Of a stretch of 64,000 nt of DNA, positions 1 to 61,460 are shown piece after piece. A program made the translations under genes and the position numbers. Source of the DNA: Sipunculus nudus (lineage: Eukaryota; Annelida; Sipuncula; Golfingiida; Sipunculidae); the NCBI GenBank assembly GCA_026874595.1, contig CM049308.1, forward strand, positions 16,986,001-17,050,000. The letters run 5' to 3'. The notes under the pieces are model-generated. The model worked only from the letters and a program-made list of their open reading frames with translations. It did no database searches and had not been told where the DNA came from. Numbering within the stretch: the first letter of the stretch is position 1; the number at the start of each line of letters is the position of its first letter.

Positions 1-3000
1 ATAGAAACACATCAAGCTGTCAAATTTTGCAATCGACACAGTTCCATAGAGACGCCATCTTGAAAATGAATTGACTGAATTTATACTAGAATTATTCCAC
101 TTCCTCTAAGGAACTGTTGACTGTAATATGAAGGCCAAAATTTTATTACTTTATGACTTATCTTGAAAGAAGTGGAAAGGAACATTATGTCCCACAGAAA
201 TTAGGTCAACACAGCTGGTGCCACCTGGAGGTCAAAATCATCTGGCAGTCACATGATCAATATTCCTGTGAAATTTGAAACTGAAGGCTGCAGCAGTTCC
301 GAAAATATTTGTTAACAGACAATACATCCTGTATGGAAACACATCAAGTTGCTAAATTTTGCAACCCACACAATTTGAAGTTCTGTAGAGACGCCATCTT
401 GAAAATGACTTGACTGAATTTATACTCAAATTATTCCCCTTCCTCCAAGGAACTGTTTGCTATGATATGAAGGCCAAAATTTCAATACTTTGTGACTTAT
501 CTTGGAAGAAGTGTAAAAAGACCATTTTTTTCCCCCAGAAAGTAGGTCAACACAGGTGACGCCACCTGGAGGTCAAATCATCTGGCAGTCACATGATCAA
601 TATTCCTGTGAAATTTGAAACTGAAGGCTGCAGCAGTTTCCAAGATATTTGGTAACAGACAATACATCATGTATAGAAACACATCAAGCTGTCATATTTT
701 GCGATCGACAGAATTTGAAGTTCCGTAGAGACGCCATCTTGAATATGACTTGACTGAATTTATACTCAAATTATTCCCCTTCCTCTAAGGAACTGTTGGC
801 TATGATATGAAGGCCAAAATTTCAATACTTTGTGACTTATCTTGGAAGAAGTGGAAAAGATCATTTTTTCCCACAGAAAGTAGGTCAACACAGGTGGCGC
901 CACGTGGAGGTCAAAATCATCTGGCAGTCACATGATCAATATTCTTGTGAAATTTGAAACTGAAGGCTGCAGCAGTTCCGAAAATATTTGGTAACAGACA
1001 ATACATCCTGTATGGAAACACATCAAGTTGCTAAATTTTGCAACCCACACAATTTGAAGTTCTGTAGAGACGCCATCTTAAAAAATGAATTGACTGAATT
1101 TATACTCAAATTATTCCCCTTCCTCTAAGGAACTGTTGGCTATGATATGAAGGCAAAAATTTCAATACTTTGTGACTTATCTTGAAAGATGTGGAAAGGA
1201 ACATTTTCTCCCACAGAAAGTAGGTCAACACAGCTGGCGCCACCTGGAGGTCAAAATCATCTGGCAGTCACATGATCAATATTCTTGTGAAATTTGAAAC
1301 TGAAGGCTGCAGCAGTTCCGAAAATTATTCCCCTTCCTCTAAGGAACTGTTGGCTATGATATGAAGGCAAAAATTTCAATACTTTGTGACTTATCTTGAA
1401 AGATGTGGAAAGGAACATTTTGTCCCACAGAAAGTAGGTCAACACAGCTGGCGCCACCTGGACGTCAAAATCATCTGGCAGTCACATGATCAATATTCTT
1501 GTGAAATTTGAAACTGAAGGCTGCAGCAGTTCCGAAAATATTTGGTAACAGACAATACATCCTGTATGGAAACACATCAAGTTGCTAAATTTTGCAACCC
1601 ACACAATTTGAAGTTCTGTAGAGACGCCATCTTGAAAATGACTTGACTGAATTTATACTCAAATTATTCCCCTTCCTCTAAGGAACTGTTGGCTATGATA
1701 TGAAGGCCAAAATTTCAATACTTTGTGACTTATCTTGGAAGAAGTGGAAAAGACCATTTTTTCCCGCAGAAAGTACGTCAACACAGGTGGCGCCATCTGG
1801 AGGTCAAAATCATCTGGCAGTCATATGATCAATATTCCTGTGAAATTTGAAACTGAAGGCTGCAGCAGTTTCTAAGATATTTGGTAACAGACAATACATC
1901 ATGTATAGAAACACATCAAGCTGTCATATTTTGCGATCGACAGAATTTGAAGTTCCGTAGAGACGCCATCTTGAATATGACTTGACTGAATTTATACTCA
2001 AATTATTCCCCTTCCTCTAAGGAACTGTTGGCTATGATATGAAGGCCAAAATTTCAATACTTTGTGACTTATCTTGGAAGAAGTGGAAAAGATCATTTTT
2101 TCCCACAGAAAGTAGGTCAACACAGGTGGCGCCACGTGGAGGTCAAAATCATCTGGCAGTCACATGATCAATATTCTTGTGAAATTTGAAACTGAAGGCT
2201 GCAGCAGTTCCGAAAATATTTGGTAACAGACAATACATCCTGTATGGAAACACATCAAGTTGCTAAATTTTGCAACCCACACAATTTGAAGTTCTGTAGA
2301 GACGCCATCTTGAAAATGACTTGACTGAATTTATACTCAAATTATTCACCTTCCTCTAAGGAACTGTTGGCTATGATATGAAGGCCAAAATTTCAATACT
2401 TTGTGACTTATCTTGGAAGAAGTGGAAAAGACCATTTTTTCCCGCAGAAAGTACGTCAACACAGGTGGCGCCATCTGGAGGTCAAAATCATCTGGCAGTC
2501 ATATGATCAATATTCCTGTGAAATTTGAAACTGAAGGCTGCAGCAGTTCCGAAAATATTTGGTAACAGACAATACATCCTGTATGGAAACACATCAAGTT
2601 GCTAAATTTTGCAACCCACACAATTTGAAGTTCTGTAGAGACGCCATCTTGAATATGACTTGACTGAATTTATACTCAAATTATTCCCCTTCCTCCAAGG
2701 AACTGTTTGCTATGATATGAAGGCCAAAATTTCAATACTTTGTGACTTATCTTGGAAGAAGTGTAAAAAGACCATTTTTTCCCCCAGAAAGTAGGTCAAC
2801 ACAGGTGACGCCACCTGGAGGTCAAATCATCTGGCAGTCACATGATCAATATTCCTGTGAAATTTGAAACTGAAGGCTGCAGCAGTTTCCAAGATATTTG
2901 GTAACAGACAATACATCATGTATAGAAACACATCAAGCTGTCATATTTTGCGATCGACAGAATTTGAAGTTCCGTAGAGACGCCATCTTGAATATGACTT

Positions 3001-4555
3001 GACTGAATTTATACTCAAATTATTCCCCTTCCTCTAAGGAACTGTTGGCTATGATATGAAGGCCAAAATTTCAATACTTTGTGACTTATCTTGGAAGAAG
3101 TGGAAAAGATCATTTTTTCCCACAGAAAGTAGGTCAACACAGGTGGCGCCACGTGGAGGTCAAAATCATCTGGCAGTCACATGATCAATATTCTTGTGAA
3201 ATTTGAAACTGAAGGCTGCAGCAGTTCCGAAAATATTTGGTAACAGACAATACATCCTGTATGGAAACACATCAAGTTGCTAAATTTTGCAACCCACACA
3301 ATTTGAAGTTCTGTAGAGACGCCATCTTAAAAAATGAATTGACTGAATTTATACTCAAATTATTCCCCTTCCTCTAAGGAACTGTTGGCTATGATATGAA
3401 GGCAAAAATTTCAATACTTTGTGACTTATCTTGAAAGATGTGGAAAGGAACATTTTCTCCCACAGAAAGTAGGTCAACACAGCTGGCGCCACCTGGAGGT
3501 CAAAATCATCTGGCAGTCACATGATCAATATTCGTGTGAAATTTGAAACTGAAGGCTGCAGCAGTTCCGAAAATTATTCCCCTTCCTCTAAGGAACTGTT
3601 GGCTATGATATGAAGGCAAAAATTTCAATACTTTGTGACTTATCTTGAAAGATGTGGAAAGGAACATTTTGTCCCACAGAAAGTAGGTCAACACAGCTGG
3701 CACCACCTGGACGTCAAAATCATCTGGCAGTCACATGATCAATATTCTTGTGAAATTTGAAACTGAAGGCTGCAGCAGTTCCGAAAATATTTGGTAACAG
3801 ACAATACATCCTGTATGGAAACACATCAAGTTGCTAAATTTTGCAACCCACACAATTTGAAGTTCTGTAGAGACGCCATCTTGAAAATGACTTGACTGAA
3901 TTTATACTCAAATTATTCCCCTTCCTCTAAGGAACTGTTGGCTATGATATGAAGGCCAAAATTTCAATACTTTGTGACTTATCTTGGAAGAAGTGGAAAA
4001 GACCATTTTTTCCCGCAGAAAGTACGTCAACACAGGTGGCGCCATCTGGAGGTCAAAATCATCTGGCAGTCATATGATCAATATTCCTGTGAAATTTGAA
4101 ACTGAAGGCTGCAGCAGTTTCTAAGATATTTGGTAACAGACAATACATCATGTATAGAAACACATCAAGCTGTCATATTTTGCGATTGACAGAATTTGAA
4201 GTTCCGTAGAGCCGCCATCTTCAATATGACTTGACTGAATTTATACTCAAATTATTCCCCTTCCTCTAAGGAACTGTTGACTATGATATGAAGGCCACAA
4301 TATTAATACTTTATGACTTATCTTGAAAGAAGTCGAAAAGACCATTTCTTCCCGCAGAAAGTAGGTCAACAAAGGTGGCGCCACCAAAAGCTTATTTTTG
4401 CATGTCCATCCCATGATCAGTAATTCTGCAAAGTTTCATGAAGGTAGCTGCTTTGGCTGTTGAGATATTTGGTAACAGACGGTGGACGGTGGACAGTTGA
4501 CAGTGGACAGTGGACGGCGGACGCTGCGCCATGGCATAAGTTCACAGAGTGAACT
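1..4555. repeat. Pearl/HINE-like element of ~339-bp tandem monomers in a 2249-bp higher-order repeat; 3' end at 4555
   Basis: A landmark (ggtcaacacag or a close variant) recurs near 204, 545, 883, 1223, 1437, 1776, 2115, 2454, 2794, 3132, 3472, 3686, 4025 and 4364. Monomers are 338-341 bp apart from two 214-bp truncated ones. Six landmarks are offset by exactly 2249 bp, so a seven-monomer block was duplicated recently. Each monomer carries a palindrome-like core close to GGTGGCGCCACC. After the last monomer come a purine-rich GGACGGTGGACAG-type tract (about 4478-4525) and a 7-bp-stem hairpin (AGTTCAC/GTGAACT, 4539-4555) followed by an A-run. The 5' end lies outside the window. Short ORFs inside are incidental. 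Classification as pearl/HINE-like is inference from architecture. Confidence 0.8.
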
Positions 4556-5416: not shown

Positions 5417-5703
5417 CTAAAAAAATAAGAAACAACAAGAGGAAACGCCAGTTGTCTGAAAAAAAAATTCTACACCACATTTAGTCATTCTGTGTAAAAG
5501 CTGGTCCTTCATGCCCATTTGTTATATGTGGTAAATCTCCAGGCAGTCAGGGTGAGCCACAATGAGGGTCGGTGCATAAAACCGTCACTGACAATGCGGC
5601 GCCACATGAGCAAGGGTCCATGTACGTCCCCGGATGTGCACAGCGCTACGCCCTTTGATTACAATTGACTTGCAAAGTTTTCACACTACTTTTATCGTTT
5701 AAA

Positions 5704-5890
5704 ATGCCTCAAACACAGTGTTGTGTTCCTGATTGTTTTAAGCAGGGTGGCCATAGATGGCCCAAAGACCAGGAACTATTCAGGAAGTGGATGCACGCAG
5801 TCAGACGGGATTGTTGGACACCAACCCAGCACTCAGTTGTCTGTCACGCACATTTCTTGCCTGATGGCTACATCACTCGGAACAGCTTGG
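5704..5890 (+). pseudogene. THAP zinc-finger first exon of a decayed DDE transposon
   Basis: From ATG at 5704 the reading frame gives MPQTQCCVPDC, then HRWPKD, a W, and VCHAHF. This is the C2CH pattern of a THAP DNA-binding domain: Cys pair separated by four residues, central tryptophan, and CxxHF. The exon ends at 5890 before a good donor (gtaaga). In THAP-type transposases this domain binds the terminal repeats. The downstream DDE part at 7045-7680 is broken, so this is probably the intact first exon of a dead element. It occurs once, outside the 2271-bp duplication that begins near 5983. Confidence 0.75.
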
Positions 5891-6285
5891 GTAAGATAAC
5901 AATCTTTAAATGTACCGTTTATTTCTGTTTAAAAGTAGTATTATATATAAAATTAAAGAAAACTTTACATAGATTTACATGTGTTGTGTAATCATTTGCT
6001 GTGGCTCTGATAAACTGGTCCCGTTGCTGTGTCACTGTAACTTTTTTTATCAGCCATTTCACTCACGCATGTCGTCCAAAGTTATGAAATGTCTTCATCA
6101 GATTTGTTTATAAGCAATATTTCCATCAAAGATCAGCTTAAGAGAGGTTTAAGTATACTGAAAGAGATTATCTTTGTCCAGGCTATCGTTACTCATATGA
6201 ATAATATTATTTTAAAAACAGTAGGAAGAATGAAAAGTCAAAAAGTCATTAATCTGAATTGTATATTTTCAGCAATATTCATATA

Positions 6286-6452
6286 CAGTGAAACCTTGTT
6301 TTGTCGAACTCGCTCGAGTCGAATACCCCGCTTATGTCGAAGTTAAAGACTCAATATTCGGGCAAATCTAGTTAAATTATAACCAAATAAAACCCGTTGT
6401 GTCGAACCTCGGACCTTTCTGACGGTCCTTTTGACTTCGACAAAATGAGGTT

Positions 6453-6457
<5 letters not shown>
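6286..6457. mobile_element. Pogo/Tigger-type MITE (copy 1)
   Basis: The left end reads CAGTGAAACCTTGTTTTGTC and the right end is its inverted counterpart (...GACAAAATGAGGTTTCACT), flanked by TA. About 170 bp and non-coding, with internal repetition of the tgtcgaa motif. The right end runs directly into a (TA)n tract at 6456-6486. TA target and CAGT-type ends are typical of Tc1/mariner-pogo derivatives. Confidence 0.75.
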
Positions 6458-6492
<35 letters not shown>

Positions 6493-7044
6493 GTCATAGG
6501 ATATAAATGAATGTACAAAAAAAGTCACAAATTACTGTGGAAGTGTAAAATTTGAATTCATATCTGTACACTTCCAGAATATAATATCCACAATGTGGAA
6601 AGTGTCTGTCATTTAAAAACACATGAAGTTTCTTGTATAACTTATGTAAGGTTATCATGATATGATGTTGATTCCAAATTATTTAAGAATTAACTCTAAT
6701 GAATAAGTGACAGAGCATGAGGTGACAATTTATGCTGTACCTATGTGTTTTTTGTGCACCAAATCAGCAACTCAAGAAACTGAAAGAAGAGCTGAGCCAG
6801 CCAGCAAACGATTAAAATGTTTTGATGACAGGACTTAGAAGCCCCTGAAGTTGGCAGTGAAGTTGTGGTTACAACCCAGGATGATTCACAAAGAGAGACA
6901 GGGCCCAACAACTTCCCACATGAGACAGAGAAGATACCAGTTGCAACCAGCAAACAGACATGCCACAACCCACCATAAAACATATACAACTACACACACA
7001 ATAATGATGCAGTACAACACTTGACAGGACTTGAAACACATAAT

Positions 7045-7680
7045 AGATTTATGTTCAGGTTTAGCACACAAGGCCCTGCTGCTTATGACTTAAATAACAG
7101 GTGGCAGAACTGCCAGTTACTTTAGGCTGCCAAATCAGTTTTTATAACAATGATGAAACTCAGGCAGTACAACTCTAACAAGGATCTGTCCTTGATGTTT
7201 GACATCTCAGAATTCTCAGTGGCCAACATATACATTAAATGGGTGAATTTTATGCATGACCAGTGGCAAGAGATTGATATTTTGCCAACAAAGAGCCTGG
7301 TGCCATACTTTATGCCATCAGATTTTGCAAAAAAGATTTTCAACCACAAGGATTATTCTGGATGGTATAGAGTGCCCGATCAAAAACTGTAATGCACACT
7401 ATCGTAACAGACAATCTATTCAACATACAGGAAAAGAAACACTGCCAAAATTGTTGTTGGAATGAGCCCTGGTGGTATGTTCACTCATATCCAACATGCC
7501 TATGGTGGCTCAACCAGTGACTGCCAGTTTGTTAAGCAAAGTGACTTGGTGACATCATGTGACAAGGGGGTTAGTATCATGGTGAACAAAGGAATGAATG
7601 TGCGAGACTTTTTTGCACCATCAGATGTTTTGGTAAATATCCCTACTTTTTTGAAAACTGGGAAACCAAACCAATGCTAA
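7045..7680 (+). pseudogene. Broken THAP-type DDE_4 transposase, copy 1
   Basis: The frames read MMKLRQYNSNKDLSLMFDIS..., a helix-turn-helix-like region preceding the catalytic core of DDE_Tnp_4 (Harbinger/ISL2EU-like) transposases. A frameshifted stretch follows with TRIILDGIECPI (first catalytic Asp region). The next frame reads VVGMSPGGMFTHIQ, GGSTSDCQFV and VSIMVNKGMNVRDFFAP, then NIPTFL. In intact relatives the last region reads MADRGF: the second catalytic Asp is Asn here. At least one frameshift, near 7390, and loss of the C-terminal Glu region make it non-functional. The THAP exon at 5704 is its likely N-terminus. Confidence 0.75.
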
Positions 7681-8024
7681 AGCCTTGTCACATGACAGAA
7701 AGGTTGTCAGTTTGAGGAAGCTTTAGAAAGGCTCATTGGGCTGGCCAAAACACAAAAGATACTGACCAGGCCACCGACTCCACCAAAATAGACTTAGCCT
7801 GTGCCACCTACTCTGCCATTCTCCACTTTGCCTGTGCCAAAGGCTCCGCCAATCTGTAGAGCACTAAACAACAGGCACAAATTGTCATAGCAGCCAATGG
7901 GGATGATGACCTGCAAGAGCAGTCCAGCCTTTACGCACAGGATTTGGGAGGATTTGTTCACCTTGAACAGCTGGATGAATCTGATACGTAACCTTTAGAT
8001 GTCACACCGCGCGACATATAAGAT

Positions 8025-8244
8025 CAAGATGTAGGCATCTCCTATGAGATTGTCCAGGCCGGAACGAATTGCAGGAAACCATGTCTGATTGATTCACTAG
8101 GATATGCCTATACTAAGAAACCATCTCAGAGAAAGACAGCAACTTACTTGCAATGTGCCGTAAGAAATAAGCACACCTGTAAAGCAAATGTTGTAGAACA
8201 TCAGAATACTTATAAAAGGAGCCCTCATCTGCAGTGGCTGATCA
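8025..8244 (+). pseudogene. FLYWCH zinc-finger fragment, copy 1
   Basis: One frame reads CRKPCLIDSLGYAYTKKP, then TATYLQCAVRNKHTCKA and VVEHQNTYKR. This follows the FLYWCH pattern (Gly-Tyr-x-Tyr, aromatic-x-Cys, Cys, terminal His), though the conserved Trp is Leu and the end is cut by the duplication breakpoint. FLYWCH domains bind DNA or protein and are frequent in THAP/Harbinger-type transposons. Confidence 0.6.
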
Positions 8245-8549
8245 ATTCCTGTGTTGTGTAATCATTTGCTGTGGCTCTGATAAACTGGTCCCGTTGCTAT
8301 GTCACTGTAACTTTTTTTATATCAGCCATTTTACTCGCACATGTTGTCCAAAGTTATGAAATGTCTTCATCAGATTTGTTTATAAGCAATATTTCCATCA
8401 AAGATCAGCTTAAAAGAGGTTTAAGTATACTGAAAGAGAGTATCTTTGTCCAGGCTATCATTATTCATATGAATAATATTATTTTAAAAACAGTAGGACA
8501 GATGAAAAGTCAAAATCAAAGTCATTAATCTGAATTGTATATTTTTTAG

Positions 8550-8579
<30 letters not shown>

Positions 8580-8582
<3 letters not shown>

Positions 8583-8753
8583 GAAACCTTGTTGTGTCGA
8601 ACTCGCTTGAGTCGAATACCCCGCTCATGTCGAAGTTTAAGACTTGATATTTCAGACAACTATAGTTAAATTATAACCATATATAACCTGCTTGTGTGGA
8701 ACCTCGAATCTGTTGAAGTTTTCTGACGGTCCCTTCAACACAACGAGGTTTCA

Positions 8754-8756
<3 letters not shown>
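8580..8756. mobile_element. Pogo/Tigger-type MITE (copy 2)
   Basis: Duplicate of the 6286-6457 element inside the second 2271-bp copy, with the same inverted ends (AGTGAAACCTTGTTGTGTCG / CAACGAGGTTTCACTG). It is bracketed by (TA)n at about 8551-8578 on the left and a longer (TA)n at 8757-8812 on the right. Confidence 0.72.
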
Positions 8757-8811
<55 letters not shown>

Positions 8812-8812
8812 C
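8757..8812. repeat. (TA)n microsatellite
   Basis: About 56 bp of TA dinucleotides adjoining the MITE right end. Shorter runs lie at 6456-6486, 8551-8578 and 13842-13876. Confidence 0.95.
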
Positions 8813-9371
8813 ATGTCATAGGATATAAATGAATGTACAAAAAAAGTCACAAATTACTGTGGAAGTTTAAAATTTGAATTCATATCTGTACACTTCCAGA
8901 ATATAATATCCACATTGTGGTAAGTGTCTGTCATTTAAAAACACATGATTTTTTTTGTATAACTTATGTAAGGTTATCATGATATGATGTTGACTCCAAA
9001 TTATTTAAAAATTAACTCTAATGAATAAGTGACAGAGCATGAGATGACAAGTTATGCTGTACCAAGTGTGCTTTTTGTGGACCAAATCAGCAACTCCATA
9101 AACTGAAAGTAGAGCTGAGCCAGCCAGCAAACGGTTAAAGCGTTTTTGATGACAGGACTTAGAAGCCCCTGAAGTTGGCAGTGAAGTTGTGGTTACAACC
9201 CAGGATGATTCACAAAGAGAGACAGAGCCCAACAACTTCCCACATGAGACAGAGAAGATACCAGTTACAACCAGCAAACAGACATGCCACAACCCACCCT
9301 AAAACATAGACAACTACACACACAATGATGATGCAGTACAACACTTGACAGGACTTGAAACACATAATAGA

Positions 9372-10006
9372 TTTATGTTCAGGTTTAGCACACAAGGCCC
9401 TGCTGCTTATGAATTAAATAACAGGTGGCAGAACTGCCAGTTACTTTGGGCAGCCAAATCAGTTTTTTTTTAACAATGATAAAATTCAGGCAGTACAACT
9501 CTAACAAGGATCTGTCCTTGATGTTTGACATCTCAGAATTCTCAGTGGCCAACAGATACATGAAATGGGTGAATTTTATGCATGACCAGTGGCAAGAGAT
9601 TGATATTTCGCCAACAAAGAGCCTGGTGCCATACTTTATGTCATTAGATTTCGCAAAAAAGATTTTCAACCACAAGGATTATTCTGGATGGTATGGAGTG
9701 CCCGACCAAAAACTGTAATGCATACTATCGTAACAGACAATCTATTCAACATACAAGAAAAGAAACACTGCCAAAATTGTTGTTGAAATGAGCCCTGGTG
9801 GTATGTTCACTTATATCCAACATGCCTATGGTGGCTCAACCAGTGACTGCAAATTTGTTTAGCGAAGTGACTTGATGACATCATGAGACAAGGGGGTTAG
9901 TATCATGGTGAACAAAGGAATGAATGTGCGAGACTTTTTTGCACCATCAGATGTTTTGGTAAATATCCCTACTTTTTTGAAAACTGGGAAACCAAACCAA
10001 TGCTAA
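9372..10006 (+). pseudogene. Broken THAP-type DDE_4 transposase, copy 2
   Basis: Second copy of the 7045-7680 remnant in the tandem duplication, with the same HTH-like region, the same frameshift region and the same Asn in place of the second catalytic Asp (VSIMVNKGMN). An additional stop sits in the TSDC region (KFV followed by TAG). Inherited lesions show the transposase was dead before the duplication. Confidence 0.72.
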
Positions 10007-10344
10007 AGCCTTGTCACATGACAGAAAGGTTGTCAGTAAGAGGAAGCTTTAGAAAGGCTCATATGGCTGGCCAAAACACAAAAGATACTGACCAGGCCAC
10101 CGACTTCACCAAAATAGACTTAGCCTGTGCCACCTACTCTGCCATTCTCCACTTTGCCTGTGCCAAAGGCTCCGCCAATCTGTAGAGCACTAAAAGACAG
10201 GCACAAATTGTCATAGCAGCCAATGGGGATGATGACCTGCAAGAGCAGTCCAGCCTTTACGCACAGGATTTGGGTGGATTTGTTAACCTTGAACAGCTGG
10301 ATGAATCTGATACGTAACCTTTAGATGTCACACCGCGCGACATA

Positions 10345-10585
10345 TAAGATCAAGATGTAGGCATCTCCTATGAGATTGTCCAGGCCGGAACGAACTGCAG
10401 GAAACCACGTCTGATTGATTCACTAGGATATGCCTATACTAAGAAACCATCTCAGAGAAAGACAGCAACTTACTGGCAATGTGCCGTAGGAAATAAGCAC
10501 ACCTCCTGTAAAGCAACTGTTGTAGAACATCAGAATACTTATAAAAGGGGCCCTCATCTGCACAAATGTCAGGCAGTGGCTGATT
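10345..10585 (+). pseudogene. FLYWCH zinc-finger fragment, copy 2 (more complete)
   Basis: The frame gives LIDSLGYAYTKKP, ATYWQCAVGNKHTSCKAT and GPHLHKCQ, restoring the Trp and the His-x-His that copy 1 lacks. An in-frame TGA follows at QAVAD. Coding-like sequence continues to about 10830 in the same or neighbouring frames (HLEEGEVCSGLPKNSD, DPSDLLFELDLDYIQ), interrupted by stops. Confidence 0.65.
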
Positions 10586-25405: not shown

Positions 25406-27003
25406 CCAAGATTTCTGCTATGGCAGTATTTATGAGCATATCATCTCATCTGCAAAGTTGGTGAATGTGACTGAAGCCGATGATAGTGATGCGAAGTCAG
25501 ATGAATACAGCACTGAACAACCATTGAAGAAAGGGAGGCAGTACTTTGTCAGGGTAGATGTGACTGAACTTCAAGATACCAGCAGCACTGAACATTATTT
25601 CGTCAAAGCCCTGGTGTGTGCTTCATATGCTAGTACAAACTATCATAGCTGTGTAACTCTGCAAAAGGATGGAAAGACTGCAAATTCATCATGTGAGTGT
25701 AAAGCCTCAGTCATAGGGAGATGCAGTCATATTGCTCAATTATTGTTTGCACTGGAGAACTACACAATCTAGTTTGGACATGAGCAGTTTTCATGCACCA
25801 GCAAGCTATGTAAATGGAATGTTGGCTGGAAGAAAACAAAAAAACCCAAAGTCAGCTCATTCACTTACATACACAAAAAAATGTTTTAAACATTAATGGA
25901 GATGAACACCTGGATTATGCGCTCATTGATGTCTGACAAAAAGAGCTTGGTGAATTGTCAGAAACTTTTCTCAGGGCAAAGGAAAACAGACTCAGGTTCC
26001 AACATACATCAGTTGGCCGGAACAACATGCCAGGCTGATTCCATGGAATGGCACATGGCACAGTGGTTCTGGATAAATGCTTCTAATTGCAAGCAGTTTG
26101 CATCCACAAGATCAGAAAGAGGACTCTATAATTGTTAGTTGTAAACCGTGGGGTGCCACCTTATCCACTCCAGCAATTCAATATGGAAAACTAAATTAAG
26201 CAAAAGCTTTGAACACTTACAGGGACACCCTGCCATGTACTCTGTCAGTGAAGGAAAGTGGGTTTTGGATAAATCCAAGCTATCCTTATTTTGATTCAGT
26301 CCAGATGGCCTTGCGTATGATGAAGATGGCCTTGCTGGACTCATAGAAATGAAATGTTCAGTAATTCAGAAGCATCGCAATCCAATTGAAATAAATAAAT
26401 TAAGTAAGAAGCAGCCAGCTTAGTTTGCTGTAAATGTGTTGACAACAAAATATATTTATATATGCGTGACCATTGACATCGCTGTCATGTTTTTAGGTAA
26501 CTCCAGAAGACATAAAGAATATTGAAATGGCTACAAGGAACCAAGCATCCAGTGCACTGTGGTTCAAGGAACGGAAGTGGCGCCTTACTGCATCTCGGTT
26601 CTACGGACATCATCCATGTGACAGCAGGGAGGAACATGGACAAGTTGTACCATCCCATACTTGAGGCCCCAAAATTATGCACAAACAATTGTACATAGGA
26701 AACAGTACGAACAAGCTGCCATTGAGAAGTTTGAGGAAACTTTTAAACTAAAGGTCACACCCAGTAGTTTGCATATCAGCGCTGAACATCCATTTCTGTT
26801 GCATCTAGGAATGGGCTGATTGGTGATGATGCCATCCTTGAAGTGAAGTGTCCATAAAAAGGGAGACATGACTTGATCAACCCTGGGCCAAATTTCCCAT
26901 TCCTTGACCACTTGGATAAGGAGGTGGTACTTAAAGACTCATAAATACTTGGTGCAAGAGAAGTGTTTATATACTGGTAAATGAATGGTCTAACTTGAAT
27001 ACA
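25406..27003 (+). pseudogene. SWIM-YqaJ tandem array, unit 1
   Basis: An open frame from about 25406 reads YGSIYEHIISSAKLVNVTEA..., then a SWIM zinc finger with CECKASVIGRCSHIAQLL (CxC-x7-CxH). A TAG at 25770 ends it where the other units read IIQFGH. The linker is shortened by an internal deletion near 25880. The region to about 26424 holds the YqaJ-A nuclease-like core, including SYPYFD (GC lost) and LIEMKCSV. After a conserved acceptor (tttttag at about 26497) a second YqaJ-like half (YqaJ-B) runs to about 26960, with GLIGDDAILEVKCP then TAA. Unit 1 alone has unique 5' flank and CTC AGG where units 2-4 have CTC TGA, so it is the outgroup copy. Confidence 0.75.
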
Positions 27004-32066: not shown

Positions 32067-32396
32067 GAGAAGTGGTCAAAGGCTATGGAAACGGACATTG
32101 CAAGGCATGCCACTAACTGCCTGAAACAAGCTCCATGGATAAAAGGGGAGGCAAAATAAAGACATTTAAAATACAATCGAACAAATCCAGCATGCAAAAA
32201 AAAACATTTTTCTTAAAACTTTCTGTACTGTGTACTTGATTCATGCCTTAATTACCAAGCAGGGAGCAGGTCCATAAAGCCATACCATCATGCTGCTGTT
32301 AAGAGTTATACTAGACTGTGCTGAACTCAAGGTTCAGTCCCCTTCCAGCCTAGTATTAAATTCAAAATTGTATTTTTACAACAAGAGTACAACCAC
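32067..32396. other. No gene seen
   Basis: Flank to the right of the YqaJ array, AT-rich, no coding signature. Confidence 0.4.
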
Positions 32397-32589
32397 CTTC
32401 AAGAGTTTGGTATGCATTGCATCCTCTGCAGCATAACCATGGTGACAGGCATCTTGGACCTTCTTGATAGTGGGGATCAGGTGATGGCGGTTAAGGGGTT
32501 TGTGATCCAAGATATACTCAACAAACAGGGCAGCATGTTGGCTATTCAAAACGTTTAAGCACAAAAGGACCAATTCTCTGGACAGGAGA
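32397..32589 (-). CDS. Possible host exon, unknown protein
   Basis: On the minus strand a 193-nt open stretch lies between an acceptor (cttctcattatgctcag) and a donor (aag/gtggtt). It reads SRELVLLCLNVLNSQHAALF, VEYILDHKPLNRHHLIPTIK, KVQDACHHGYAAEDAMHTKL. Amino-acid composition and the flanking splice signals look like real coding sequence, and no stop interrupts it. I do not recognise the family. No adjoining exon was found nearby, so it may be one exon of a gene with large introns, or a captured fragment. Confidence 0.4.
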
Positions 32590-33604
32590 CTGAGCATAAT
32601 GAGAAGATAGCAAATTTGAGAGTACATGTAGAAAGTACATGTAGAAAGGGTGATTCAAGGAATTTCATATCTTTGATTCAATAATTCCCTTGAACTAAAC
32701 CGGAACCTTCATCACACCATGAGAATGTAAGGAAACGCATATATTGCTCTAGTGAGAGCACCTGCCTATACTTCTCCCCTGTATTGCATGCAAATACATG
32801 AAGCGCCCCATGGTCACATAATTTCAGGAAATCATATCAAGATATGCCTAAAACCAGTTTTTTGATGATATTTAGTCATTGGTGAATATGCAAAAGTGCT
32901 AACAAACTGAGCAAATATGGGTAAAGGTCAACCAACAGTTAATCAGTTCGAGAGTCATTATTTGATGCCTTCCACTAAATTAGAAAAAAAATCCAATAAA
33001 AAAAAACCCTCAGTGCTATCGTGCTAACTGACAAACAAAGCCCAAAGTCTACTGTAACTTGGCCTTGAGAGCATAAGTCAAGGTCACAGCACCAGGAAAT
33101 GATACAGAATTATGATGTAATATTGATAGATGCAAGTCTGTAGGAGATATGAGCATTTTAAAAGTGCAGCCACGGACATGGATGCCTACCGGTAAAACAA
33201 TAAGCTCTCTGATGGGGCACTTCAAAATATTTACTTTGCGATGCTGGGAAGGTGTTGCCCCTTCTAGAAAGAGGTGCAAAAATGGTGGCATCAGTTTAAG
33301 TGGCCATATCTGTTTATCAGTGCGATAAAGAGGGACATTTGTATGATGTAACATACAAATGACGTACAAATACCACTGTTATTTTCAACAGTACAAGTTG
33401 CCAAGTGGATGTAAATTTAGTCTGTCATCTAGGTTCGTCACTGATATGTTGCAAGACCACAGACCTCTTTCAGTCATTATTCTTTCTGAATTAATCATTT
33501 GGAATCCATACATAGGAGAATATTATTCTGCTGTAAGATAAAAGCCACATTTGTCTGATTTGCTTCTGGACAAAATAAATGTAATTTATAGTGCATTGTA
33601 AATA
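32590..33604. other. No gene seen
   Basis: AT-rich; open frames on the minus strand near 33049-33369 lack recognisable domains and splice context. Confidence 0.35.
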
Positions 33605-38290: not shown

Positions 38291-38294
38291 AAGT

Positions 38295-38735
38295 ATGAAC
38301 ATTCCAGGGAAGCACAATATACTTGCTGATTGTTATCTCGTTTTCAGGTTCCTCGGGCACACAGATAGCACCTTGGCTTCAAGACCAACCACTTTGTCTC
38401 CATGCATCCATCTGGCCATAGGGCCAGTATTTGTTTCATTGTTGAAAGCTGCTTTTTCAACAGCCACTCAAACCTTTACAATCAGGTTTACAATAGATTC
38501 AAGTCATTCGTTTTTTCCCCATTTCCAAGAACTGGAACATAAGTCTTTACCTACAGCTGTGCCAGTGATAGCTAGCTATGCTGCATTTTTACATGAGGCA
38601 GGGTATTCCTCTAAGACAATAAGTACTCATATTTCAGCACTAACTTATCAACATAAAATTCAAGGCCATATTGACCCTTCATCCTCCTTTCTCATGGGGA
38701 CAAGGCACCTTAGCCAATCAGTTCCCACTAAATAA
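38295..38735 (+). pseudogene. DIRS-like tyrosine recombinase, N-terminal part
   Basis: A 146-codon frame begins MNIPGKHNILADCYLVFRFL. INIPGKxNxxADxLSR is the link between RT/RNase H and recombinase in DIRS elements. It continues with VPVIASYAAFLHEAGYSSKT, STHISALTYQHKIQGHIDPS and FLMGTRHL: the core-binding (SAM-like) domain of a tyrosine recombinase. The following catalytic domain is decayed; only traces are readable to about 38900 and no R-H-x-x-R-Y set could be seen. The element would have used recombinase-mediated integration instead of an integrase. Confidence 0.7.
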
Positions 38736-38899
38736 CAAAGGATATACTTGCTAGACTTTGTGCTGTCTGTTGGAAGTTCTAGAGAGTTGTGCATGGCTAT
38801 GTTAGAGCTTAGAGTTATAGGGTGATTATTTTACATGTGGGTACCAAACAATGTTGAGATGAATAGTGTAGAAGAGATATGGACTGCTTTGAAGGGACT

Positions 38900-39282
38900 T
38901 GTTATTTTGCAGAATGGAAAGAATACTCAAGCTGTTACTGTGATTTCAAGAATCCTACCAAGCTGATAGGACTTGGGTGTGAATGATTTGAATATCAAAA
39001 TTACACAAGTGAATGCAATTTAAGCATGCCAGGTTAAAGTTTGGGATTGTGAATTCTGGAAACCGTACAGGGTATTTATGTGGACAATTAGTTTAATTGG
39101 ATGTTAATTTTGTAGGCAGGGCACCAGTCTGTGGCACGTGACGGGCGGTCACGTGTGACTGCCAGTCACGTGATTTAGTTGTGGTGGGTTGGGATATTTT
39201 CCTGGCTGGGTCATTCGGCAAATCTCAGCCCAGTTGGGCAGACAGAATTTACAACAACTGGCAACCCAGAAAACTGTTTAGG
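38900..39282. promoter_or_regulatory. Upstream region of the SAM ORF with three CACGTG E-boxes
   Basis: CACGTG occurs at 39135, 39150 and 39167, within 38 bp, two of them in the TCACGTG context (gtcacgtgtgac, gtcacgtgat). The cluster lies 110-150 bp upstream of the ATG at 39283, a position typical for a promoter. bHLH-ZIP factors (MITF/TFE/USF type) bind GTCACGTG. Function here is inference. Confidence 0.45.
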
Positions 39283-39290
39283 ATGGCAAT

Positions 39291-39327
39291 ACGCGACTCC
39301 GGAGATCCCCGATCTTCTGTAGTGGAG
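39291..39327 (+). repeat. Left terminal inverted repeat of the ISL2EU-type transposon
   Basis: Pairs with 43966-44002; mismatches at the sixth base (A/G) and at G/A after GATCCCC. Preceded by AT at 39289-39290. Confidence 0.88.
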
Positions 39328-39373
39328 GTGCGTAAGTGCTGCTGCACCAGCAGGCTTGCGGGCAAAAACAAAT

Positions 39374-41596
39374 ATGGCCGACAGCAACAGTACAGCAGAC
39401 CGATCGTCACCAAATTGTGCCACACATTTTAGCGCTAAGACCATTAAGCAACTGAAAGAATTTCTCACTGCTAGAGGAGTTCAGACTTCGGGATATAAAA
39501 AAGTCCAACTCGTTGAGCTTGCCCAGCAGTCAGAGTGTTTGGACCTGGAACAGATAGACACGGCTGATGACCATGAGGAAAGCCTGGACAAGCGTCAGCT
39601 TGTACAAGGCCCTGATGACCGGGAACACGTACTGCCCCTTATATCTTCTGTTCAGAACTGGGCCGACGATCTAGTAAATTTGCCTCCCATAAAAACTGCC
39701 GATGTCCTAGTTTACCTGCAGACCGTGTGTGGCTGGAGCTCTGAGAGACTTAAAGGTTACAAACAGGATCGGGGCTACGGAATGTGCAGTGACAACCATG
39801 TTGGTAATGTCAAGCTGGGGCTTCTTGCGCAAGAATACGCTTATGTCAAGGGGACATGCCTACCTGAAACCAGACAATCTGCCGAACCTTACTGCGTGTG
39901 GATTCTGGTTAGACTGGATGGCAGGATAGAGTCGGGAGGTTGCAACTGTGTCGCGGGGCAAGTTTATCAATAATTTTAATAAAAATTACTATTTCATAAC
40001 TATTAAGTCCAAACATGTATGCCTTAAGAAAAATGTTGTTTTTGTATTGATCATACTTTAATCACTGAGCACAAATTTTATTCAAATGACACGCTTCAAA
40101 TTCTAGATAGGAAAATACTCTGAAACAATACAAGTTAAAAGAATACTTTATTACATGGCCTACGTCAATTAAAATAAGTTTTTTATTGATTTTCAACACC
40201 CCTCTAAAACAAAACAAATATATTCTGAGGCTGCCTACATGTATATATTATTTAACTCTTTTATTGAAAAATTGAAGTAATATTGTATTGATTTTCAACC
40301 CATCAAATACAAAACTAAAAATATATACACACACACACAAACTCTATATATATACACATTGCAGATGTTTTCATACCTGAGGCTGCCTACATGCACATAT
40401 TATTTGACTTTATTATGGACAAACGAAACGATATTCACAGTATATTTTACTATTACAGCCAAAGCATCAACATATTAATGAACATACATTTATGGTTTAT
40501 TCTATTTCTCTTGTCTTGCAGGGATGGAGGAACATGTAAACACGTGGTAGCTCTACTCTATGCTGTTCAGCAGTTTTGTGAGAGGCACCAAGACCGGCAC
40601 ACAGAAGTTGGAACTGATGTCACATGTAAATGGGACAGGGCAAGAAAACCATCTCGCCCAATGCTGATAAGTGACATTCAAATGACATCTCGAGCTTGTC
40701 CACTACCTATTCCGTCAGTTTACAACCCATGTATAGCACTGACAAAGGATGAAGAGACAGCCATTCAGAATGCAGTGTTTTCTCTCTGCCTCAAGACTGC
40801 ACTGCTGAGAACCCTGACCCCACCACCTGGGGTCACATTTGAACTCCAGCCACCCGCTGTGTTTGATTTGGCAAAGGCATTCAAGCAAAACGAGACAGAT
40901 GAAGGATTCATAGACTATATGAAGAAACACATGACCACACAAAATGTGCAAGAGATATCCTCGTATGAACAAGGAACAGATGAGTGGCACGTTCATAGAA
41001 GTGGTCGTATAACAGCGTCTGTCATGCATACAGTATGTAAAATGCAAAAGCAGTGGAGATCAACACACAGTGCAATCAAAAAGATCTTAGAATGTGTCAG
41101 CACAGACATCAAGTCTCCTGCACTTACCTATGGCAGGGAGAAAGAGCCGATAGCATGTCAACTTTACCAAAATGACAATGAGAAACTACATCAGCAGTTC
41201 AAACTTAAAACATCTGGGCTTGTAGTGAATTTGGAGGAACCATACCTGGGAGCATCACCAGATGGAATTGTGTCATGTAAATGTTGTGGAATAGGAACCT
41301 TAGATATAATATGTTCCTACAAGTATAAAGATATCTCCCCCTCAGAAGTAGCTGCTAAAGAAGATTACCACATTAAAGTTACAGCTGATGGAGCTGTGAG
41401 TCTGGACACAAGTTCACCATGGTATTATCAGATTCAAGGTCAAATAGGAATCCTAAAACTTGACTGGTGTGACTTTGTACTGTACACTGAAAAGGGTCTC
41501 TACTGTCAGAGAATATCGTTTAACCAGACCCTGTGGAATGACATTAAAGAAAACTGCAAACAGGTATATGAAACCTGTATTGTACCTGAGCTGTAA
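39374..41596 (+). CDS. SAP-SWIM-YqaJ nuclease-like protein of the ISL2EU-type transposon (two exons)
   Basis: Exon 1 is 39374-39957 and exon 2 is 40522-41596, 552 residues, no stop or frameshift. The start is ATG at 39374 (MADSNSTADRSSPNCATHFS). Residues about 20-55 (KTIKQLKEFLTARGVQTSGY...) form a SAP DNA-binding motif. The intron splits a SWIM zinc finger: CNCVAG from exon 1 joins DGGTCKHVVALLY from exon 2 (CxC-x7-CxH). The donor is GC (GG/gcaagt), the acceptor cttgtcttgcag. The C-terminal 230 residues are YqaJ-like: GTDEWHVHRSGRITAS, YGREKEPIA, YLGASPDGIV, WYYQIQGQIGIL, WCDFVLYTE. Where active members have E-x-K (LEIKCP) this protein reads LDIICS, so catalytic Glu is Asp and Lys is Ile, and nuclease activity is doubtful. 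In this transposon group the second protein is thought to act with the transposase. AATAAA follows at about 41609. Confidence 0.85.
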
Positions 41597-41658
41597 AATT
41601 AAAGTGAAATAAAACAAATTATACACTGAAGTGATACATTTGCTGCATATTTAAGCGA

Positions 41659-42941
41659 CTATTTCTTAACCAGAGGGGGTAGGAAATTGCACAGAGCAGC
41701 AGCAACAGTTATTATTTGGTTTGCTACAGACTGTAAGCCCGAGGGCATAACCTGATTTAATAATCTGAAGTTCTTGAGCCTTTCAATAGCTCTTTCCACA
41801 TGGATTCTTAATTTTGCTATGGACCGCGTCTTGTAAATTTCTTGAACATTTAACCTTTTATTTTTACCCCATATACATTTCCTTGTAAAGGGAGGCATAT
41901 TCAGTGTGGCCTGATGTTTAAGGAGAAGATCTTTAATAGTAAAACCCCTGTCTGCCATTACATCACCTCCAGGTTGAAGTAAATCTAGAATCCCACTTTC
42001 TTTAGTGATGTATCTGTCAGATACATCCCCCCCCCACAAATCTGAAATAAAGCTGAAGGTTCCCTGTGGTGTTACACCAATCAATGCTTTGTATGCGTTG
42101 TGTGATTTGTATTGGCTGTATGTAGTGGCTTGTGCTGAAGGTGATCTTGGTCGTTGTATGTAAAATTCACTGCAATCAATGATTACTCTTGTGTTGGGGT
42201 ACTCACTCTTAAAGTTGGGTGGCATGTACTTGTTAATCATGTCCCTGGAAGGCCATACAATAAGTGGTTTCAACAGTGTGTGCATCAAATTAATCCAGGT
42301 AATAAATACACTGGAAGCTGTGGAATCTGACACACCAAACAAGTCCTCAATGACAAATCCCAACAACCCTAACCTGACCCTAACTAAGGTCATGAGGAAC
42401 TCCTCAAACCTTGTAAGCTCTCTCTGTGGACCAGGCTTTTCTTGCTGCAACGAGTTTGATACCCCTTTGGGTCTTTACTAGAACCTTGTGTCAAATATTT
42501 AATTTTTGGCTCAGAACTATCAATAACCTTGAAGAGTCCAATCAAAGTGTCCCTGTTAGGCAAACCGGTATACTGCCGCACTGATCGATCACTCTCTGTA
42601 ACCATTCCCACCACAAGTTCCCTCCGTAGTGCTGCCCTGTCTGACAATTTTGTCTGCAGGTATGCATTTTCATCTGCCAACTTCTTGTATGATGCCTCCA
42701 TTTCATTGAACTTTACCAGGTCAACATCTGTTTGCACTGCCATGTCCCTGGTCATTGGTTTGTCCGAAGACCCCTGCCCTGGTGAGTACTGGTGATCCGT
42801 AGATGGAGCCATGCTTGGGATGACCGCTAAAATGAAGAAAAATAATCATAGTACACATGTATATTCATCCTAATAACTGGTTTGTGTGTGTGAGCTGATA
42901 CTACAAAAGTATAAAATAAATAAATATTCACATGCATGTAT

Positions 42942-43001
<60 letters not shown>

Positions 43002-43831
43002 TCATATTTTTAAGCTAATGTATAATATAAGTGTACCAGCTTATATACAAATTATACTCAAAAGTTAACAAAAAAGTACTTATATATAAATTTGTATATA
43101 CACTATATATATAGTACATATATATATATATATATTTGAACATATATATATATTTGTAAATACAGATCATGACATGCTTTAATATACTAATCCTGACACA
43201 GATAAATAGCTGTGCAGCAGTATTCACGGCTCTGGACCTATACTATAGTCACTTTGTAATTTATATACATAAAATACATATTATATATACACTTGAGCAA
43301 AAATTAAATATACTATATTAACAAGCTTAAATATCAATTTGACTTACATGGTTCTGATCTGTTTGAGTTTTCAATCACAAATTCTCCCGCAACATATGGG
43401 TATCTTGCCTCAGCAGGTAAAATTGTTTCGCTGACAATGGTGACTCTGGGATGCACTGATGTCGAACTTGGTGACTGACAGCTGTGATGTTCATGGACTG
43501 ACGACTGATGCGACTCACATTTGTTTATCGAGGCTGGCGATCGTGTACTCACAGGCAACTTATAGTTGTTGTAACTGAACAGTTCTGGTATTGGATGACT
43601 TTCTGTCGGACCAGCGTTGTCCACAAAATGCATTGAGTAAATCCTTGTATGGCGATTTGGCACCCTTGTCGGCTCTCTATGGACCATCCGTATCCACTGA
43701 TTGAGAAGAACTCGATCTTTCAGCGGAAACTTGTGGAGGGTAACGTGTCTCATCCATGGATATTTCTGGAGATTATCCTTCTTCCTGCTATCTGCCGAAC
43801 AGTCCTACGAACAACAACGGTATCCTGGCAT
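41659..43831 (-). pseudogene. THAP-DDE_4 transposase of the ISL2EU-type transposon, two lesions
   Basis: Exon 1 (43831-43348) starts MPGYRCCS, then a TAG at 43807-43805 between the THAP cysteines, then DCS, LHKFPLKDRVLLNQWIRM and IYSMHF, completing a C2CH THAP domain. It ends at a gtaagt donor. Exon 2 begins at 42826 after ttcattttag, in matching phase. It holds a coiled-coil-like stretch (EMEASYKKLADENAYLQTKL) and an HTH-like part. The frame breaks at a run of four C (plus strand 42462-42465); the catalytic domain continues in the next frame from LQQEKPGPQRELTRF. The full DDE set is present: NTRVIIDCSEF, DVMADRGF and HVERAIERLKNFR, ending LPPLVKK. One nonsense codon and a 1-bp indel therefore stand between this gene and an open frame. 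Either could be a real mutation or a sequencing error. Confidence 0.85.
42942..42998. repeat. (TA)n microsatellite in the transposase intron
   Basis: About 57 bp of TA within intron 1 of the minus-strand transposase; shorter TA runs at about 43107-43155. Confidence 0.9.
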
Positions 43832-43965
43832 ATTCAAGCGATAACAAATGACAGAGCAATGGACAAGGCGAATCAAGCGACGGCCATCTTTGTTTTTGCT
43901 CGCAGTGACACTAGCTATAGGGGCGCACCTGCCGGCGAAAGGCAGCAAACGGGGTGACATTTTGT

Positions 43966-44002
43966 CTCCACTACAGAAGATTGGGGATCTCCGGAGCCGC
44001 GT
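43966..44002 (-). repeat. Right terminal inverted repeat of the ISL2EU-type transposon
   Basis: Reverse complement reads ACGCGGCTCCGGAGATCCCC and on to GTAGTGGAG; followed by AT at 44003-44004. Confidence 0.88.
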
Positions 44003-44233
44003 ATTCAAGAGAATGCGCCTCCATTATCGCCCGCAGAACAAATTAAAGCCTGGGCTGAGGAGCACATGATAGATGTGGCTTCAGTTGATCTACTTGCCAA
44101 ACATGGATTCACTTCTATCCAAGCCTTACAGCTACTGGAGGCAGAAGATCTTCCTCTGAAACTGCCAAGAGGGCAACAAAAGTTAATTCTGAAGGAAGTT
44201 GGCTTGCTCCCAACAGTAGTTATGGGGTGGTAG

Positions 44234-60347: not shown

Positions 60348-61460
60348 CAGTCGGACCCTTCTAATCCGGCCTTCGATAGTCCGGCATTCGGCGTAAACCG
60401 GCACATTTCTTGAGAACGGATTTCCCACATTATATTTTTAGGTCGTAATCCGGCTTTTTGCGTAATCCGGCTCTGGCACAATTACCGAGAACCAACATCC
60501 CTATTTATGATAACCATCATCTACGTAATCCGGCACGCCTCAGTGACTTCCCCGCCGGTGAACATCAAACAGCTCACTGCCGGTCATGCATAAGTCGCAC
60601 CCCCAATCAGACATGAAAGAGTGTATTGGTCTCGCTTGTTGATTGCAAACATAAACAATGTGTCAATGTTGAGTAGATTTAATCATTGTGTTTATGTTTG
60701 TTACTTGTTTTGATTCTATGTAATTATGTTTAAAGTGACTTCAAAGAACAAACAAACTAAAAAGAGTGAAAAATTAAAGATTTTTATGCCTATAAATACT
60801 GCAGTGATTAAAGAGTATTTATTATCGTCATTGACATACGCCAGCTATACCGAAACGAAAGCGCTGTGAAATCAATGTTTCTCTGAAGAGAAACATCTGC
60901 CTCTACAAAGAAAAACACCCAAAGGTGACACAGAGAGACATCGTGGGATGGGTTGCTACTGAACACAAGATTGACATTGGTCGTCAGACTGTGTCAGACA
61001 TACTGTCAATCAAAGACAAGTGGCTGAAAATGGATGAAAGCACAGACACAGTGAAAAGGATGAAAATGGGCAAGCATCCACAGCTGGAAGAGGCATTGAC
61101 ACTATGGTTGAAAGACATTTTGGCACATGGAGCGATTGTTTCCACTGACATTCTCCCTGAAAAAGCAAAAGAGCTAGGACAGCAACTGGGGATCACTGAC
61201 TTCCAATACTCGAATGGATGGATAGATAGGATGAAAGCACGAGGTGGCATCAAACAGCACGTCATGCATGGTGAATCAGGGAGCGTAGACCAACAAGTCG
61301 AATCAAAGGGTCGAAGTGACATTCAAGCAGCACTTGTCGGATACAGTCTTTGCAACATTTTCAATTTTGCTGTGGGTGTCCCTGATACGTAATCCAGCAA
61401 ACTGCGTAATCCGGCATGATTCCTAATCCCCGATGGTGCCGGATTAACGGGGTCCGACTG
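60348..61460 (+). mobile_element. Pogo/Tigger-type DNA transposon, internally deleted (1113 bp)
   Basis: Inverted ends CAGTCGGACCCTTCTAATCC and ...GGATTAACGGGGTCCGACTG, flanked by TA on each side (60346 and 61461). Subterminal copies of GTAATCCGGC occur near both ends (60446, 60465, 60525, 61405). Only the DNA-binding part of the transposase remains. Confidence 0.9.
60835..61392 (+). pseudogene. Pogo-type transposase, CENP-B-like DNA-binding half only
   Basis: The open frame begins after a stop at 60832. PKRKRCEINVSLKRNIC follows an ATA at 60847 where homologues have the ATG. KVTQRDIVGWVATEHKIDIG is the psq/CENP-B N-terminal HTH, and PQLEEALTLWLKDILAHGA through SNGWIDRMKARGGI is the Tc5/CENP-B HTH. 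It stops being homologous at YSLCNIFNFA, just where the first catalytic Asp motif (NADET) would follow. The rest, including the whole DDE domain, is deleted and the frame ends with VPDT-TAA inside the terminal region. Confidence 0.8.

Follow-up and report, generated by a model that had tools for sequence, protein, structure and literature searches.

A full-length DNA transposon of the ISL2EU type was identified in a 64,000-nucleotide stretch of the genome of Sipunculus nudus (assembly GCA_026874595.1, contig CM049308.1, forward-strand positions 16,986,001 to 17,050,000), here called the window, in whose own numbering all coordinates are given. The element appears to have inserted at an AATT site, where it splits a short open reading frame (ORF) resembling a SAM domain, and this particular copy is now probably unable to mobilize itself. 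We assign to this interpretation, taken as a whole, a probability of about 0.9. The element is whole in outline, and its coding capacity, judging from the sequence, is probably damaged.

The ends of the element and its immediate surroundings are as follows.

39289..39290, no strand: target site duplication AT, left copy, with an A directly before it (direct sequence reading)
39291..44002, no strand: ISL2EU-type DNA transposon, 4712 bp
39291..39327, + strand: left terminal inverted repeat of 37 bp, 35 of which match the right end
43966..44002, - strand: right terminal inverted repeat, 37 bp
44003..44004, no strand: target site duplication AT, right copy, with a T directly after it (direct sequence reading)

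Both boundaries, as well as the 2-bp AT duplication, had been proposed in the first-pass annotation of this DNA, and both are borne out exactly. Downstream of the right AT the sequence reads TCAAGAG, and beyond the 37 bp the ungapped similarity between the two ends falls to chance level. The ends were also recovered when the window was compared with itself (95% identity over 40 bp, E 1.7e-10); of the eleven inverted pairs that the window yields at E up to 0.01 and a length of at least 16 bp, they alone bracket the insertion site, and no third site resembling the left end (at least 25 of 37 identical positions) is present in the 64 kb. The tetranucleotide AATT itself occurs at 603 of the 64,000 positions of the window.

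The ISL2EU group belongs to the PIF/Harbinger-ISL2EU-Spy (PHIS) superfamily. In the survey by Han and others (PMC4482050), the target duplication of ISL2EU elements is given as AT within A|AT|T, and most of the candidate autonomous elements carry one ORF for a transposase with DDE, HTH and THAP domains and one ORF for a YqaJ protein. The element described here shows the same 2-bp duplication in the same context, with A before the left AT and T after the right one, a THAP, an HTH and a DDE domain in one predicted gene (in the present reading of which a stop and a frame change occur), and, in a second gene, a YqaJ domain (PF09588) that with 50.1 bits exceeds its cut-off of 22. Its 37-bp inverted ends fall within the range of 6-259 bp, and its 4712 bp lie near the mean of about 4840 bp, that the same survey reports for the group (PMC4482050). 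The four Pfam matches that define its domain content are all above their cut-offs (DDE_Tnp_4, E 1e-43; HTH_Tnp_4, 9.7e-13; THAP, 1.2e-7; YqaJ, 4.8e-13) in a scan of five ORFs of the element with E up to 1, in which the transposase domains were searched as separate pieces.

The PIF/Harbinger elements share with this one a related DDE_Tnp_4 transposase and a two-gene layout, but the survey describes for them a 3-bp TWA duplication and a second protein of Myb/SANT type (PMC4482050), whereas the duplication here is AT, and no Myb/SANT domain is among the Pfam matches (E up to 1) of the five ORFs of the element. A more distant likeness is to the bacterial IS5 elements, since the DDE domain matches NF033581 (E 1.3e-7, 31 bits, below the cut-off of 140); the predicted introns, the THAP domain and the accessory YqaJ gene set the present element apart from them. 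The assignment to ISL2EU made in the first-pass annotation is thus well supported by duplication, target context, gene content and size, which point to an ordinary further copy of a known kind of element. What makes the copy useful is that, as an ISL2EU insertion, it is clean: ends, duplication and target site are all exact.

Two genes are predicted inside the element, on opposite strands; the main predicted intron of each joins its exons in phase.

39374..39957, + strand: predicted exon 1 of the YqaJ gene, with a SAP-like region (below cut-off) and the first half of a SWIM-like zinc finger
39958..40521, + strand: predicted GC-AG intron of the YqaJ gene, from the donor GCAAGT to the acceptor TTGCAG
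40522..41596, + strand: predicted exon 2 of the YqaJ gene, with the second half of the SWIM-like motif and the YqaJ nuclease domain
43348..43831, - strand: predicted exon 1 of the transposase gene, with a THAP domain (E 1.2e-7 on the ORF that follows the TAG)
42827..43347, - strand: predicted intron of 521 bp in the transposase gene (GTAAGT...TTTTAG), in phase, containing AT microsatellites
41659..42826, - strand: predicted exon 2 of the transposase gene, with HTH_Tnp_4 and DDE_Tnp_4; stop codon at 41659-41661

In the transposase, the residues D, D and E are present, with the spacing D-74-D-51-E (assigned by eye). With the exons as predicted, the gene contains a TAG in frame at 43805-43807, in the first (N-terminal) cysteine motif of the THAP domain, and its frame shifts between about 42474 and 42420, ahead of the HTH domain.

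The spliced YqaJ reading is open across the two predicted exons and encodes 552 amino acids, and the YqaJ domain is recognized both in the exon ORF (E 4.8e-13, 50.1 bits) and in the spliced product (E 7.1e-13, 49.5 bits). When GT or GC donors at 39940-39973 were combined with AG acceptors at 40400-40544, four pairs kept the frame open, all of them with the GC donor GCAAGT, and only the acceptor TTGCAG among them retains the C-K-H half of the SWIM-like motif. The intron falls within this motif, CNC...CKH (E 0.012, 15.5 bits, cut-off 19.6), and the SAP-like region ahead of the motif scores E 0.0073 and 16.4 bits (cut-off 23.9). The donor GCAAGT either belongs to a rare donor class or has been altered in this copy. 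A SAP-like and a SWIM-like region ahead of YqaJ distinguish this element from the ISL2EU layout outlined above; a search of the main text of PMC9179366, which did not extend to PMC4482050, gave neither the word SWIM nor the term SAP domain. The YqaJ gene thereby gains some detail, namely a SAP-like region and a SWIM-like motif divided by a predicted GC-AG intron.

The E-x-K residues of YqaJ and lambda exonuclease are catalytic. At this place the YqaJ domain of the element reads D-I-I, against E-L-K in lambda exonuclease (alignment E 6.2e-5), and two further YqaJ ORFs in the window have E-M-K at the same position. The element had been described in the first-pass annotation as near-intact, which is accurate for its full-length outline and probably not for its coding capacity, given the stop and the frame change of the transposase and the loss of E-x-K in YqaJ; in this, too, the copy departs from the ISL2EU group.

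The usual account for the group would apply here as follows. An ISL2EU transposase would have inserted a full-length element at an AATT site (A|AT|T) by way of a 2-bp staggered cut, the fill-in of which would have produced the AT duplication, and the insertion would have split the short SAM-like ORF after its eighth base. With a transposase gene apparently broken and E-x-K missing from its YqaJ protein, the resulting copy would probably not be movable by its own proteins, and could move only by means of proteins supplied by another copy.

The interrupted ORF consists of two parts.

39283..39290, + strand: first 8 bases of the ORF, ATGGCAAT, with the start codon in the context AGGATGG
44005..44233, + strand: remainder of the ORF, SAM-like (SAM_2, 13 bits, below cut-off), ending in TAG

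When the flanks are joined without the element, the sequence crossing the junction is GGATGGCAATTCAAGAGAATG. Three joins were tried: with one AT kept, as the first-pass annotation had proposed, a continuous ORF of 78 codons from ATG to TAG is restored, with both copies kept the frame closes after 24 codons, and with both removed after 15. Because the element and one AT together measure 4714 bp, which is 1 mod 3, the frame depends on the 2-bp duplication. The restored frame had also been put forward as independent confirmation of the ends; it does agree with the 2-bp duplication, but as independent proof it is weak, being roughly a one-in-three check: when the upstream 600 bp (38691-39290) were put through 5000 dinucleotide shuffles, 30.3% of them gave an in-frame open ATG.

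As to the nature of the ORF, SAM_2 is the only family found among the 24736 Pfam models with E up to 10; it scores 13.0-13.1 bits (E 0.11-0.12), the cut-off being 20.5, and no family was found in NCBIfam. The SAM domain named in the first-pass annotation is upheld in so far as SAM_2 is the sole Pfam family, and falls short in that its score stays below the cut-off. If SAM is taken as a single model named beforehand, the Pfam value becomes, by division, near 5e-6; a SAM-like domain is therefore likely, short of the curated standard. In a single-sequence fold model of the ORF, compared with 25 chains in view of the five-helix SAM fold, four helices are seen, at a quality (pLDDT 61.7) too poor to weigh in either direction. 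The G+C content at first, second and third codon positions is 0.65, 0.34 and 0.41, in a small sample of 79 codons; first positions rich in G+C are common in coding sequences. Among the papers listed in a survey for SAM domains associated with transposon or gag ORFs, titles and the beginnings of abstracts brought up nothing on point. As no more than a candidate gene, the interrupted ORF carries little weight.

The ORF might instead be part of another repeat, for example a decayed retroelement ORF, in which case the insertion would be nested and harmless. This alternative deserves to be taken seriously, even though we do not favour it. The window is rich in repeats, and 550 bp upstream of the insertion an open stretch at 38292-38732 resembles the end of a retroelement protein; its only Pfam match is Phage_int_SAM_1 (E 0.058, below cut-off), and we take it to resemble DIRS-type retroelement coding sequence. 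On the other hand, a tblastn search of the window at E up to 10 gave no second copy of the ORF, and, apart from the ends of the element, no repeat pair brackets the site, either direct (E 1e-10) or inverted (E 0.01 and 16 bp).

From the absence of decay in the host ORF, the first-pass annotation had argued that the insertion is recent and perhaps polymorphic. The argument fails on the length of the ORF. Provided that the faults are genuine, the 3307 bp of coding sequence of the element hold two to four damaging changes, the number varying with the way those in YqaJ are counted. At this rate 76-87% of stretches of 228 bp would be free of damage, and a still larger share if fewer faults are genuine; the intact state of the host stretch therefore says almost nothing about age. 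A polymorphic insertion is possible, and one that is both recent and polymorphic strikes us as somewhat unlikely. Besides the undamaged host stretch, what speaks for it is that the inverted ends differ at just 2 of 37 positions, and that in mutation-accumulation lines of Daphnia magna one gain and one loss of ISL2EU elements were reported (PMC8594854), so that live ISL2EU families exist. Against it stand the stop and the frame change read in the transposase and the loss of an active-site motif in YqaJ, and the intact ORF contributes little given how often it would be expected. It should be noted that, had the copy been mobilized by proteins of another source, its faults might already have been present before it inserted, and so they are no proof of great age.

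Several observations weigh against the overall interpretation. The ends of the element start with ACGCG, hence with AC, whereas those of the group usually start with GG, a tendency and no strict rule in the survey cited (PMC4482050). The SAM, SAP and SWIM labels all lie below their curated Pfam cut-offs. Neither an empty site nor a second copy nor a relative was found in the window or in the collections of prokaryotic and viral contigs. These collections may omit the genome from which the window comes, and are uninformative for the 21-base string of the empty site, searched exactly (no match in either genome_contigs or viral_contigs), the pattern of the inverted ends (0 matches in viral_contigs), the DDE piece (no relatives in either collection) and 70 residues of the SAM-like ORF (no relatives in viral_contigs).

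The remaining adverse points concern the transposase, the faults of which might have been misread: an extra intron might lie where the frame changes, the TAG might receive another first exon by splicing, or the assembly might be in error. In all, 72 loosely defined GT/GC...AG pairs of 20-150 bp would mend the frame (e.g. GTTATT...TTGCAG, 83 bp), nine in-phase GT or GC donors lie upstream if the TAG serves as an acceptor, and, with only one sequence at hand, a base-call error could be involved. One of the nine donors, GCTAGT, would remove 111 bp and leave C-x4-C, a THAP-like motif. However, none of the nine looks like GTRAGT, the ATG at 43831 with CC shortly after it resembles, by eye, the start of a THAP domain, and the D-I-I of YqaJ is a change of its own, beyond the reach of splicing. 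A misreading of the transposase is, on this evidence, unlikely, and we retain the view that the coding capacity of the element is probably damaged. A 34-bp intron GTAAAG...TTGCAG, considered for the frame change, is not among the 72 pairs that restore the frame.

It also appears improbable that the 78 codons of the ORF were joined by chance and that the true start of the SAM-like coding sequence lies at another place, such as an upstream exon brought in by splicing. The frequency of in-frame open ATG codons in the shuffled upstream sequence would allow it, as would the + strand being open for 76 codons at 3.2% of positions (672 of 20763, in three nearby regions). Yet the ATG lies in a good context (AGGATGG), an RnnATGG context having been met in only 6.8% of the shuffles, and among the three joins the frame is open only with the exact 2-bp duplication. 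Finally, that D-I-I is a family trait, the YqaJ protein of this lineage working as a non-cutting, DNA-binding partner of the transposase and not as a nuclease, seems to us very improbable.

The window contains further repeats and transposons. Between 25475 and 32063 lie about four tandem copies, starting near 25475, 27044, 28742 and 30420 (1.6-1.7 kb apart) and 86-92% identical; YqaJ matches were found in two of the four ORFs scanned there, and a SWIM match (E 0.11) only in a third. They are followed at 32302-32786 by a decayed DDE match, and the two regions together probably represent a second PHIS-type element with a YqaJ gene amplified in tandem. A third transposon of a related kind, with an internal duplication, is perhaps present at 5659-10562, where a THAP ORF (E 4.1e-10) precedes two tandem copies, 93% alike, with DDE matches in tblastn at 7195-7656 and 9461-9982. 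The beginning of the window (1-4385) is occupied by a satellite-like array with units of about 339 bp, in which the spacing is 214 bp at two places. Towards the other end, an ORF at 60835-61389 carries a Tc5-type transposase DNA-binding domain (HTH_Tnp_Tc5, E 4.1e-12), and we take it to be probably the start of a pogo/Tigger-like transposase.

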